A DNA stretch of 45,911 bases, from contig JACNHV010000249.1 of NCBI GenBank assembly GCA_014383445.1, forward strand, positions 1 to 45,911, given 5' to 3'. How positions within the stretch are numbered: position 1 is the stretch's first letter; each line of letters opens with the position of its first letter. A model generated the notes under the pieces. The model was not told where the DNA came from. It ran no database searches and saw nothing but the letters and a program-made list of their open reading frames with translations. Both the position numbers and the translations under genes were made by a program. This document shows, piece by piece, positions 40,588 to 44,445 of the stretch. This DNA is from Candidatus Desulfobacula maris. Its GTDB lineage: Bacteria; Desulfobacterota; Desulfobacteria; Desulfobacterales; Desulfobacteraceae.

Positions 40588-42003
40588 ATGTTGCAAAAAC
40601 TAGATGATTTACAGGGCATAAAATCTTTCAGGTTGGTCAAATTTTTCACCTTCTCCTCCCTTGTGATAATGTTTGCGGCAACCATTACCATCTCAGCTTT
40701 AAATGCCCACTGGGTAAGAAATATTCTTCTGGAAAAAAGTAAAGAATATGCCTCACTCCTTGTTGAGAATCTCAACCATCAGATCATTTCCAGGTTTATG
40801 CTCCCTGTATTAGTACGATACAGAGAGATCCGGCTGCGGGAAAAGGAACAATTCCTTCTTATGGACAAAGTTGTCCGATCGACCCTGCATAGTTTTAATG
40901 TTGAAATGGTCACCTTTTATGATGAAAACAACATCATCTCCTATAGCTTTGATCAGACTAGAATAGGGCAAAAAAATGCAGGTGGTGTCCATTATGAAAA
41001 AGCAATGAAACAAGAAGCAACGTCAAGGCTCCTACAGCAGGGCAGCTTTCTGGAGTTATTATTCTGGTTTCCCCAGGAAACAAAAATCATTACCTTTGCT
41101 CCCTTAAGGGCTGACAAACAGATATCACCTGATCTGGCAGACCGGGTACTGGGTGTTGTTGAAATTGTCCGGGATGTTTCTGATGATTATAAAAAAGTAT
41201 TTAAGCTTCAAGGGCTTATTGTTGGGTCATGCTTTATTATTATGGGAATACTTTTCATAGTACTTCGGTTTGTGGTTAAGCATGGAGAAAAAATTCTAGA
41301 GAAAAGAGCTGATGAAAGACTTAAGCTTGAAGAAAAACTGCGCCAGGCCGAGCACTTGTCAGCCATTGGTGAAATGACAGCAGGTGTATCACATGAAATC
41401 AGAAATCCTCTGGGGATTATAAAAAGCAGTGCCCAATTATTGAAGAAGAAGATGGCAAAACTGGATGCCACAAGCACTATCCCTGATATTATTGTCGAAG
41501 AGTCTGCCAGGCTTGATAATATTATTACAGATTTTCTGGATTTTGCCAAACCTAAAATCCCGGATCTTCATCCCTGCCGGATTGAGGAGATTATAGAAAA
41601 AAATATTGCCTATCTTTCTCCCCGGATAGAAGATCATAATTTCAACATCATCAAAGAGATATCAGAACGATTACCTGAAATAATGGCTGACAGTGCCATG
41701 CTGCACCAGGCGTTTTTAAATATTTTCATTAATGCATTCCAGTCCTTAAAAAATAATGGCTGTCTTACCATCCGAATCAAATATGATTCAGGCAGTATTA
41801 TTATTAATTTTATTGATAACGGGGAGGGTATCCCAGAACAGGTCTTAAAAAAAATATGGACCCCCTTTTTTACAACAAAAGATACTGGAACTGGATTAGG
41901 TCTTGGCATCGTAAAAAATATGATTGAAGCCCACAACGGAACAATTGCAATTACAAACACAGAAACAAGGGGCGCAAACGTGGAAATTAGGCTTCCAGCT
42001 TAG
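40588..42003 (+). CDS. Membrane sensor histidine kinase (NtrB/AtoS-like)
   Basis: A 471-residue kinase. Two membrane helices (about 20-42, LVIMFAATITISALNAHWV reversed in part, and 207-228, LIVGSCFIIMGILFIVLRFV) bracket a periplasmic sensor of about 160 residues (DNNIISYSFDQTRIG is Cache-like). The kinase core has H-box IGEMTAGVSHEIRNPLGIIKSSAQLL, N-box FLNIFINAFQSL, DNGEGIP and GTGLGLGIVKNMI. There is no PAS or clear HAMP domain. It is followed 12 bases later by its NtrC-type regulator. Lying next to pilMNOPQ, it could be a PilS-like pair, but it lacks PilS's six helices, so I leave it unnamed. Confidence 0.9.
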   Translation: MLQKLDDLQGIKSFRLVKFFTFSSLVIMFAATITISALNAHWVRNILLEKSKEYASLLVENLNHQIISRFMLPVLVRYREIRLREKEQFLLMDKVVRSTLHSFNVEMVTFYDENNIISYSFDQTRIGQKNAGGVHYEKAMKQEATSRLLQQGSFLELLFWFPQETKIITFAPLRADKQISPDLADRVLGVVEIVRDVSDDYKKVFKLQGLIVGSCFIIMGILFIVLRFVVKHGEKILEKRADERLKLEEKLRQAEHLSAIGEMTAGVSHEIRNPLGIIKSSAQLLKKKMAKLDATSTIPDIIVEESARLDNIITDFLDFAKPKIPDLHPCRIEEIIEKNIAYLSPRIEDHNFNIIKEISERLPEIMADSAMLHQAFLNIFINAFQSLKNNGCLTIRIKYDSGSIIINFIDNGEGIPEQVLKKIWTPFFTTKDTGTGLGLGIVKNMIEAHNGTIAITNTETRGANVEIRLPA

Positions 42004-42015
42004 GAGACAGATGGC

Positions 42016-43386
42016 ATGGAAAATATTCTGATTGTTGATGATGAAAAAAATTACCCCACGATAATAGGAGAAATCCTTCAGGAAGAAGGCTATACATCCT
42101 TAACCGCTTCCAGTGGAATGGAGGCCCTGGATATTCTAAAAAACGAACTCATAGACCTGGTTTTGACGGATGTAAAAATGCCCGGGATGAGCGGTATCCA
42201 ATTACTTGAAAAAATTAAAGAAATCAAGCCGGATATCCCTGTCATCATCATGACGGCCTATGGCAGTGTAGAAAAAGCTGTGGAAGCAATGCACAAGGGC
42301 GCATACACATTTATTCTCAAACCTTTTGAGAACCAGGCACTTATTGCCCATATTGCCAAAGCAATCTCGGTTTACAGGATTGTTCAGGAGAACAGCATCC
42401 TCAGGGCGGCAATCAGTTCACGGTACAGCTTTGATAATATTATCGGAAAAAGCAAACCCATGCAGGAGCTTTATGAACTTATTAAAAAAGTGGCACCTTC
42501 CAATGCCAGCGTTCTTATAGAAGGGGAAAGCGGTACTGGCAAAGAGCTGGTCGCAAAATCAATCCATTATAACAGCCTGAGAAAAACCAAACCTTTAATT
42601 GCTGTAAACTGCTCGGCATTTGCTGAAACGCTTTTGGAAAGTGAGTTGTTTGGTCATGAAAAAGGAGCCTTTACAGGGGCAATCGCCATGAAAAAAGGGC
42701 GGTTTGAAATGTCTGACAAAGGGACTCTATTTCTTGATGAAATTGGTGAACTGCCCATTTCACTCCAGGTAAAATTACTCAGGGTTCTTCAGGAAAAAAT
42801 AATTGAACGGGTTGGGGGGACAATGTCTATCCCTGTTGATTTTCGCCTCATTGCAGCCACTAACAAAAACCTTGAAGATGAGGTAAAAAATGGGCATTTC
42901 AGAGAAGATCTCTATTACAGGCTCAATGTTGTCAAGGCGCTTATCCCTCCCCTTAGAGATAGATCCGAGGACATTCCTTTGTTAATCAAACATTTTATAG
43001 ACAAATATACCAATGTGCAGCCCTCAACGGGCAATGTATCAGGGATCAAGCTGGAAACTGTCAAAATTTTATGTGATTATCAATGGAAAGGCAATGTAAG
43101 GGAACTTGAAAACATTATAGAACGCTGTGTTATCCTCTGCCGCAGCGACACGATTACCCCTTCCGACCTTCCATTACAGGTCAGACAGAATATGTCTTTC
43201 ACACTTGATCTGAATGGGATTCCTGAGGATGTGGGACTTGCGGAAACTCTGGCAGCCGTCGAGAAAAGGATGATACAAAGAGCGATGAAACTTTCAGGCG
43301 ATGTACAGACAAAAGCAGCCGAGCTTCTGGGAATAGGAAAAAGCGGCTTGAATCAGAAGCTTAAAAAATTTAATCTGGAAAAATAG
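42016..43386 (+). CDS. NtrC-type sigma-54-activating response regulator
   Basis: A 456-residue regulator. The receiver has phospho-acceptor Asp52 (LVLTDVKMPGMSG) and Lys in LKPFE. The AAA+ domain has Walker A GESGTGKE (169-176), an intact GAFTGA loop (217-222), Walker B LFLDEIGE and the arginine-finger region REDLYYRLNV. A Fis-type helix-turn-helix ends the protein (TKAAELLGIGKSGLNQKLKKF). It should therefore activate sigma-54 promoters when phosphorylated by the adjacent kinase. AGGAGAC precedes the ATG. A near-consensus sigma-54 promoter with candidate upstream sites lies 100-270 bases downstream of its stop and is an obvious possible target. Confidence 0.93.
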   Translation: MENILIVDDEKNYPTIIGEILQEEGYTSLTASSGMEALDILKNELIDLVLTDVKMPGMSGIQLLEKIKEIKPDIPVIIMTAYGSVEKAVEAMHKGAYTFILKPFENQALIAHIAKAISVYRIVQENSILRAAISSRYSFDNIIGKSKPMQELYELIKKVAPSNASVLIEGESGTGKELVAKSIHYNSLRKTKPLIAVNCSAFAETLLESELFGHEKGAFTGAIAMKKGRFEMSDKGTLFLDEIGELPISLQVKLLRVLQEKIIERVGGTMSIPVDFRLIAATNKNLEDEVKNGHFREDLYYRLNVVKALIPPLRDRSEDIPLLIKHFIDKYTNVQPSTGNVSGIKLETVKILCDYQWKGNVRELENIIERCVILCRSDTITPSDLPLQVRQNMSFTLDLNGIPEDVGLAETLAAVEKRMIQRAMKLSGDVQTKAAELLGIGKSGLNQKLKKFNLEK

Positions 43387-43399
43387 CTTATAAAAATAA

Positions 43400-43427
43400 T
43401 AGGTCGTTCAAAATTATAAACTATTTT
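43400..43427. promoter_or_regulatory. Candidate upstream activator site 1 for the sigma-54 promoter
   Basis: Contains GTTCAAAATT (43406-43415), the same 10 bases that occur inverted in the 36-bp dyad downstream (43503-43512). Its flanking half (TTATAAACTATTTTAA) resembles the other half of that dyad at most positions. It lies about 230-250 bases before the sigma-54 element. Confidence 0.4.
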
Positions 43428-43486: not shown

Positions 43487-43522
43487 ATTAAAACAAATTT
43501 AAAATTTTGAACTTGTTTTAAT
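43487..43522. promoter_or_regulatory. 36-bp near-perfect palindrome, candidate upstream activator site 2
   Basis: Two 18-base arms meeting without a spacer match at 16 of 18 positions; the inner arm reads AAAACAAATTTAAAA against AAAACAAGTTCAAAA. A gapless dyad cannot fold well as RNA, so a protein-binding site is likelier than a terminator. The centre is about 140-150 bases upstream of the -24 element, normal for NtrC-type enhancer sites. Confidence 0.55.
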
Positions 43523-43639
43523 CCTTTTTAAATTTATCTGGGACAAACGAAGAACCTCAAATTTTATTCAATAATAAAAATGACATAATTTCAGGTAGTT
43601 AAAAAAAATTTAAAAGGGCAGCGGTTAATTTTCATATTA

Positions 43640-43655
43640 TGGCAGGGAAATTGCA
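43640..43655 (+). promoter_or_regulatory. Sigma-54 (-24/-12) promoter
   Basis: TGGCAGGGAAATTGCA matches the consensus TGGCACG-N4-TTGC[A/T] at every fixed position except the C after TGGCA. The spacing between GG and GC is exact. The start point is predicted near 43666-43667. No gene lies downstream on this strand before the terminator at 43710-43747. Confidence 0.7.
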
Positions 43656-43666
43656 ATATTTGTTTT

Positions 43667-43750
43667 ATACTAACAGAATGTTAGTTTTTTCATCTTTTTT
43701 TCCTTTTCTAAAAAAGGCTGCTTGAGCAACACAAAGCAGCCTTTTTTAGT
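43667..43750 (+). ncRNA. Predicted sigma-54-dependent small RNA of about 80 nt
   Basis: The predicted transcript begins at the sigma-54 start point and ends at the intrinsic terminator. It would have a 5' hairpin (ACTAACA-GAA-TGTTAGT, 43669-43685, perfect 7 bp), then a pyrimidine-rich single-stranded stretch (about 43686-43708, with UUUUUCCUUUUC), then a 14-bp terminator stem. The pyrimidine stretch is complementary to purine-rich ribosome binding sites. There is no ORF. The architecture resembles Qrr RNAs beside LuxO. The rest of the gap 43387-43755 is AT-rich and holds only the sites listed. Confidence 0.55.
43710..43747 (+). terminator. Strong bidirectional intrinsic terminator
   Basis: A perfect 14-bp stem (AAAAAAGGCTGCTT with AAGCAGCCTTTTTT) and a 10-base loop end in a run of T on the plus strand. 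Read on the minus strand it also serves the feoB-SH3-TPR operon, whose last gene stops at 43756. Confidence 0.9.
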
Positions 43751-43755
43751 TTAGA

Positions 43756-44445
43756 TCACTTTATTTCATCCATCTTACTCTGGGCGATTGGCCCGTACAT
43801 TGAAGTTTCATATTCCGTAACAATTTTCTCGTAAAGTTTTTTGCTCTCACCCACTTTATCATCGATTTCATGCAACATGGCCAGGGCAAATTTTGCTTCA
43901 TCCTTTAATAGATCTGTTTTGCCTTGCTCAATTTGAAGAAAATATTTTTCAGCCTCTTCAAATTCTTTTCTGGCAAGGCTTACATTCCCCAAAGAGGCCA
44001 GAAGAAAATTTTCCATCTGAACGTCATTTTTCAATATCTCAAGGGATTCTTTATAGTATTGATAACTTAGATCAAATTTTGAAGCATCATAACATATTTT
44101 GGCAAATTTAACCTTTGCCAGCTTACCGGCTATGGTATTGGCATACTCCTTAAAAATATTTTGAAAGGCATCTCTGGTTTCCAGATACCCTTTGTCGGGA
44201 TCATTGATTGTTGCATATTGGTTTAGCGCTTGACTTACAAGCAGAGCAGCAGTATTTTCAGCTTTTTGAAAATTGTACATAATTCCTGAAAAAACCACAG
44301 CCACCAAAACAATGGCACCTGCGATCAAAATCAATTGTTTTTTATATTCCTTTGCATAGGCCATTGCCTTTAAAAGGCTTTCTTGAAAAGGATCTATTTG
44401 CTCAAGTTCCTTTCTTCTTTCATTTGACACTCTCTGCTCTGCCAT
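43756..44445 (-). CDS. YfgM/TPR_21-like membrane-anchored tetratricopeptide protein
   Basis: A 229-residue protein with a cytoplasmic N-terminal tail, one membrane helix (LILIAGAIVLVAVVFSGIMY, about 38-58) and a periplasmic domain of helical repeats (TPR_21-like; KFAKICYDASKFDLSYQYYKESLEIL, FEEAEKYFLQIEQGKTDLLKDEAKFALA). YfgM of E. coli, of similar layout, works with SecYEG and periplasmic chaperones. The assignment by fold is reasonable but the role here is not proven. AAGGTGG precedes the ATG. It follows the SH3 gene by 40 bases and is the last gene of the minus-strand operon. Confidence 0.75.
   Translation of the reverse strand: MAEQRVSNERRKELEQIDPFQESLLKAMAYAKEYKKQLILIAGAIVLVAVVFSGIMYNFQKAENTAALLVSQALNQYATINDPDKGYLETRDAFQNIFKEYANTIAGKLAKVKFAKICYDASKFDLSYQYYKESLEILKNDVQMENFLLASLGNVSLARKEFEEAEKYFLQIEQGKTDLLKDEAKFALAMLHEIDDKVGESKKLYEKIVTEYETSMYGPIAQSKMDEIK

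Follow-up and report, generated by a model that had tools for sequence, protein, structure and literature searches.

A predicted sigma-54-driven small RNA conserved across Desulfobacteraceae, with complementarity to porin translation starts

The locus and its promoter

The window (the whole 45,911-nt stretch of Candidatus Desulfobacula maris DNA analysed here) contains a two-component gene pair followed by a short intergenic region. The first gene (40588-42003, plus strand) encodes a sensor histidine kinase of AtoS/ZraS-like type with HisKA and HATPase_c domains (Pfam) and two transmembrane segments read from the sequence; its best NCBIfam models are AtoS and ZraS, both below cut-off. The second (42016-43386, plus strand) encodes an NtrC-type response regulator with a GAFTGA motif and Response_reg, Sigma54_activat and HTH_8 domains, for which AtoC, NtrC and ZraR are the nearest NCBIfam families, none of them above cut-off. 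A pilus role for the pair is suggested by the adjoining pilM and related genes alone. Regulators of this kind number dozens per genome in this class of bacteria (PMC12316311). Beyond the intergenic region lies the convergent gene for a TPR-like membrane protein (43756-44445, minus strand; ORF list and domain search), which flanks the small RNA (sRNA) in the conserved locus. No ORF of at least 50 aa is present on the plus strand at 43640-43749, and the lone ATG inside the predicted RNA reads M-L-stop. A sequence-only reading of this DNA had already described the kinase/regulator neighbour, the lack of an ORF on the RNA strand and the opposite orientation of the next gene, all as found here, and had proposed that a sigma-54 promoter drives an RNA of about 80 nt.

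The proposed -24/-12 element TGGCAGGGAAATTGCA (43640-43655, plus strand), defined by motif scan and by conservation in exact-core loci, has one mismatch to TGGCAC-N5-TTGCW, as the earlier reading stated, and is the single match of that quality in the window. By itself this match proves nothing, because 1.81 such matches are expected per window by chance and 82 of 100 shuffles contain at least one. Comparison between genomes is decisive. Upstream of the 22-nt core of the RNA, TGGCA-N6-TTGCW is perfect at 48 of 54 family loci and has one or two mismatches at 5 of 54, so that the promoter is kept at 53 of the 54 exact-core loci, with L066 the sole one lacking it; the motif is absent at all three chance core matches outside Desulfobacteraceae (0/3). 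It is this comparative evidence, and not the match in the window, that confirms the element at 43640-43749. With position -12 assigned to the C of the -12 GC, transcription would start at about 43666.

RNA structure, copies and upstream sites

The predicted RNA, for which promoter geometry sets the start and the terminator the end, covers 43666-43749 (plus strand; ~84 nt), and its fold is more stable than those of shuffled sequences (z = -6.4). Near the start, the single-sequence fold contains the 5' hairpin of the earlier reading, ACTAACA-GAA-TGTTAGT (43669-43685, plus strand); it occurs as ACTAAC..GTTAGT in regulator-linked copies and is weaker or absent in ahcY-linked copies, and some 5' pairing is found in the folds of 48 of 54 copies. 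The bases between the two hairpins are the most conserved part of the RNA and comprise an invariant, mainly single-stranded seed, TTTCATCTTTTTTTCCTTTTCT (43688-43709, plus strand), the complement of a Shine-Dalgarno (SD) sequence, spacer, AUG and AAA codon. The RNA ends in an intrinsic terminator hairpin with a U tail (43708-43749, plus strand), identified by fold and covariation, whose stem-loop is bidirectional and common to the RNA and the convergent minus-strand gene. Compensatory changes affect 11 of its 14 pairs, and 98.3% of cells are paired (equalled by 0/500 shuffles). The earlier reading rightly placed an intrinsic terminator here but gave it 14 bp, where the single-sequence fold has a 16-bp stem (43708-43723 with 43734-43749); its distance of about 55 bases agrees with the 53 nt from the last promoter base, but not with the ~42 nt from the predicted +1 from which it had been counted. 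No Rfam family reaches its gathering threshold for this RNA (the best, rseX, scores 25.7 bits against 50 required), none is found in the other copies, and the open-access literature searched holds no prior account of it. The RNA family is previously undescribed and absent from Rfam.

The RNA is not a singleton. A DNA search of this genome returned another copy (contig C383), located after metK-ahcY and 88% identical over the RNA, with the sigma-54 element TGGCATGCCAATTGCT at identical spacing and otherwise different surrounding sequence; the two copies share promoter, seed and terminator in unrelated contexts. Relatives mostly carry one to three copies. The RNA was detected in 83 of 86 Desulfobacteraceae genomes by DNA similarity and also by a covariance model (R1), including all 42 of the 42 good genomes. 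When 84,980 species were scanned with the 22-base core as query, without promoter or terminator, 57 loci were returned, 54 of them in Desulfobacteraceae (the genera Desulfobacula, Desulfobacter, Desulfotignum and Desulfospira, plus relatives with less precise names) and 3 outside it, at all of which the covariance model fails. Promoter, seed and terminator move jointly to unrelated positions that follow ahcY or a MetF-like gene, and do so across genera. The joint conservation of promoter and terminator in relatives, which the sequence-only reading had put forward as its own test, is thus observed, together with covariation, and its interpretation of the locus as an sRNA is supported.

Where a copy has no link to the regulator, its neighbours are often methyl-cycle genes: metK and ahcY (L004, L042, L045, L088, L090) or, in Desulfotignum (L037, L061, L062, L064), a MetF-like gene. 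Beyond the family, an order-level search recovered the same locus in five genomes from three other families. There the gene order regulator-sRNA-TPR persists, the regulator is 57-67% identical where its gene falls within the locus, the terminator stems differ, and the promoter, the CAUCU core and related palindromes are kept. A phylum-wide model search, which scored few candidates in each genome and so sets no limit on the range, returned the own genome alone. Within the family, other genera (L332-L335, L337, L339) have CCUCCUUU as the anti-SD half of the seed and retain CAUCUUUUU, and this altered seed complements AAAGGAGG-N-AUG starts.

Two elements were absent from the earlier reading: upstream activator palindromes, one or two per copy, and outer-membrane porins as predicted targets. 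In the window, the predicted activator sites are GTTCAAAATTATAAAC (distal, 43406-43421), whose position relative to the promoter, about -234, is conserved, and ATTTAAAATTTTGAAC (proximal, 43497-43512), at about -143; they match the consensus GTTCAAAATTTTGAAC only with two mismatches. Such GTTCAAAATTTTGAAC palindromes are found upstream of nearly every copy in all locus types, including the second copy of the own genome and those of other families; often there are two, spaced by ~75-90 bp, one at about -125 to -145 relative to the promoter and the other at about -200 to -235. In its exact form the palindrome is present in 46 of 86 family genomes (reversed control, 0/86) and leads to an sRNA promoter and seed at 29 of 30 loci examined; two exact palindromes away from any sRNA look like chance. 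In the own genome, only the sRNA copies join such a palindrome with promoter and seed. The geometry and uniqueness of the sites point to one dedicated enhancer-binding protein. Since in ~30 genomes the sRNA immediately follows the NtrC-type regulator gene, the product of that gene is the likely activator. A tentative IHF-like site, TTTCAGGTAGTTAA (43589-43602, plus strand), is located between the activator sites and the promoter, and the IHF consensus (at most one mismatch) is present in 21 of 29 regulator-linked copies against 6.1 expected. Both parts of a sigma-54 transcription unit, the -24/-12 element and upstream enhancer sites, are thus predicted at the locus.

Predicted targets and alternative readings

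The earlier reading had also noted a pyrimidine-rich region able to pair with AAGGA-type ribosome binding sites, which corresponds to the seed. Its invariant core complements both the SD sequence and the start codon (AAAAGGAAAAAAAG-AUG-AAAAAA), and the reverse complement of the seed, GAAAAGGAAAAAAAGATGAAAAAA, reads as a ribosome binding site, a start codon and two lysine codons. Apart from the sRNAs themselves, the places where the core matches DNA are starts of genes, with outer-membrane beta-barrel proteins encoded by nearly all of them. The target pattern has matches in 73 of 86 family genomes (sRNA copies included), compared with one match in 86 genomes for the reversed control. Signal peptides are present in 51 of the 53 distinct predicted targets inspected, and 40 of the 44 complete ones, which belong to several paralogous families and are not independent, have a signal peptide together with a C-terminal beta-barrel aromatic signature. 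One target, modelled from its alignment, is predicted with moderate confidence to form a porin-like beta-barrel, and its best solved relatives are porins and channels such as Campylobacter MOMP, AlgE and Omp32. The porin start of the own genome (contig C96), missed in a first alignment search and found with a closer porin query, pairs with the sRNA over 27 bp at -33 kcal/mol; the duplexes of the own porin and DctP starts are unbroken over about 26-27 bases, with energies of -31 to -34 kcal/mol, a level reached by 0/500 shuffles. The extended complementarity to porin starts looked for in a porin-repressing sRNA is present as predicted duplexes. Within the own genome, the target pattern has just one other exact match, the DctP start, which belongs to a TRAP-transporter binding protein (L119/L172, contig C46, 4783-4805) and suggests that the targets may include uptake genes beyond porins.

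Genome-wide ranking was done on 1866 gene starts in 2 Mb, half of the genome of one complete relative. Porins are two of the top three (p = 1.8e-4), a result matched by 1 of 60 shuffled seeds, and duplexes at or below -22 kcal/mol involve 8 of the 1866 genes versus 1.1 for shuffles. Porin enrichment over all genes is weak (AUC 0.57), with only the top of the list enriched, and the target claim is therefore limited to the few best targets. What the seed complements is a ribosome binding site of a strong, generic kind followed by Lys-Lys codons, and part of the enrichment could come from strong starts of this type that are common to highly expressed exported proteins. A real sigma-54 sRNA might on these grounds be a broad anti-SD damper of many mRNAs, or a ribosome competitor: the seed is anti-SD plus anti-start, distant genera have the generic anti-SD CCUCCUUU, non-porin starts such as DctP pair strongly too, and the mean duplex energy over the 1866 genes is slightly below the shuffle mean. 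However, such a broad role is unlikely, given that strong pairing is restricted to those 8 genes, that porins predominate among the highest-ranked genes and among the matches across genomes, and that the CAU anti-start triplet and its spacing, needless for general anti-SD activity, are kept.

Many predicted targets have a further element in their 5' leaders. In 36 of the 53, across several porin families, a hairpin with the near-constant loop UUUAAAAGGA and a freely covarying stem is present, mostly ~50-75 nt before the start codon (e.g., L125, L126, L133, L135, L166, L180, L187; L196 on contig C96 in the own genome). The loop repeats AAAAGGA, the mean stem length is 9.7 bp versus 5.0 with the arms swapped, and there is no Rfam match. 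Possible roles for the hairpin are as a CsrA-type site, as a standby site or as a second contact for the sRNA. Its covariation, and the repeated AAAAGGA in its loop, would also suit an sRNA that raises target expression, e.g., by opening this hairpin, but the longest complementarity spans the SD sequence and the start codon, a geometry that represses in known sRNAs of the MicA/RybB class, and activation is very improbable.

Two readings dispense with the sRNA, and both fare worse. The conserved block could be a small minus-strand gene, as its complement, GAAAAGGAAAAAAAGATGAAAAAACTAAC, would serve well to start translation (a ribosome binding site and then ATG AAA AAA, like the start of a leader or exported peptide) and some copies stay open for at least a dozen codons; yet this frame reaches a stop after 2 to ~19 codons, no peptide is conserved (MK*, MKKLTFC*, MKKLTLG*), and the sigma-54 promoter and activator sites face the opposite way. 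This reading was dropped for want of a conserved frame and has hardly any likelihood left. That the stem-loop is merely a terminator common to two convergent genes, beside a chance sigma-54 match, was plausible on the window alone, where the terminator also ends the minus-strand gene and a one-mismatch -24/-12 element is expected 1.8 times, but the joint travel of promoter, seed and terminator to unrelated sites and across genera, with the inter-hairpin bases the most conserved of all, rules out a chance match and leaves this the least credible reading.

Proposed circuit and known systems

The locus is most probably a ~84-nt sigma-54 sRNA, one of two siblings, driven by the adjacent regulator and blocking porin translation at start sites. 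In the proposed mechanism, the AtoS/ZraS-like membrane sensor kinase, perhaps in response to an envelope or nutrient signal, would phosphorylate the NtrC-type regulator, which would bind GTTCAAAATTTTGAAC-type sites that precede the RNA start by ~160 and ~250 bp and, probably by IHF-assisted looping, activate sigma-54 polymerase at both copies. The exposed invariant 22-nt seed would then pair with the SD sequence (AAAAGGA/G), AUG and AAA AAA of porin mRNAs, and this pairing would block 30S binding and lower porin synthesis. Conserved DNA supports the first half of this chain, complementarity the target step, and analogy with sRNAs that act at start sites the outcome.

Pairing may proceed without Hfq. 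A search for Hfq gave matches above cut-off in 0 of 86 family genomes, the same search being positive in 5 of 14 known genomes used as control, and 84 of the 86 had no match at E <= 0.001. Sub-threshold partial matches were seen in two genomes (L327, L328). An Hfq-free mode would fit the long continuous duplexes, and a diverged Hfq is possible. We lean towards a wider proposal, held less firmly than the sRNA itself: an envelope circuit of Desulfobacterales in which the sites of the kinase/regulator pair are essentially all at sibling sRNAs, porins are silenced without Hfq, and the UUUAAAAGGA leader hairpin is joined to the same control.

Several known systems resemble parts of this arrangement. 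The Qrr/LuxO system of Vibrio, to which the sequence-only reading had likened the locus, shares the circuit logic: a sigma-54 promoter, an NtrC-type response regulator beside one copy, several siblings served by a single activator (here two copies, with the same palindrome), activator sites essentially dedicated to sRNAs, and pairing near ribosome binding sites. The likeness goes no further, as the Rfam Qrr model does not match the RNA even at E up to 10 and the regulator scores 372 bits against the NCBIfam LuxO cut-off of 800; Qrr membership is therefore rejected. Qrr RNAs also differ in their use of Hfq, none being detected here, in their predicted targets, which here are porins, and in phylum. 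MicA, RybB and other omp-repressing sRNAs of Enterobacteria (PMC1804206) are likewise short, act at the starts of outer-membrane mRNAs and have several targets per RNA, but they are sigma-E-driven and Hfq-dependent, whereas here sigma-54 and a two-component regulator are predicted and no Hfq was found; Rfam gives no sequence similarity to them. The RNA thus resembles Qrr in its drive and MicA/RybB in its targets and is a member of neither. NcS25 of Burkholderia (PMC10117139) is another porin-targeting sRNA with a bidirectional terminator common with a convergent gene, but has no sigma-54 motif upstream according to that paper and differs in sequence and context.

Closer in phylogeny are the ncRNAs of Desulfovibrio vulgaris, in the same phylum, where the NtrC-type regulators DVU0653 and DVU0679 have ncRNAs just downstream of their own genes as targets (PMC3333781, PMC4641369). 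In the available portions of these papers, expression of the ncRNA after DVU0679 is seen on tiling arrays and its function is reported as unknown, both RNAs are described only in terms of post-transcriptional regulation or unknown function, and no GTTCAAAATTTTGAAC site, porin-start seed or Desulfobacteraceae member appears; the likeness drawn here is one of arrangement.

Desulfobacteraceae are major sulfate reducers of marine sediments, and to our knowledge almost nothing is known of their regulation by sRNAs. The present analysis proposes a specific regulon that can be put to the test, with its promoter, activator sites, sibling RNAs and targets, across almost all genomes of the family. It points to a way in which an sRNA may control porins without recognisable Hfq, through ~20-27 continuous base pairs, and to a role that the unexplained sigma-54 ncRNAs beside NtrC-type regulators in Desulfovibrio might have. 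If true, the envelope circuit would parallel the sigma-E/RybB-MicA system, using sigma-54 in place of sigma-E and no Hfq, and would have a second riboregulatory element in its targets.
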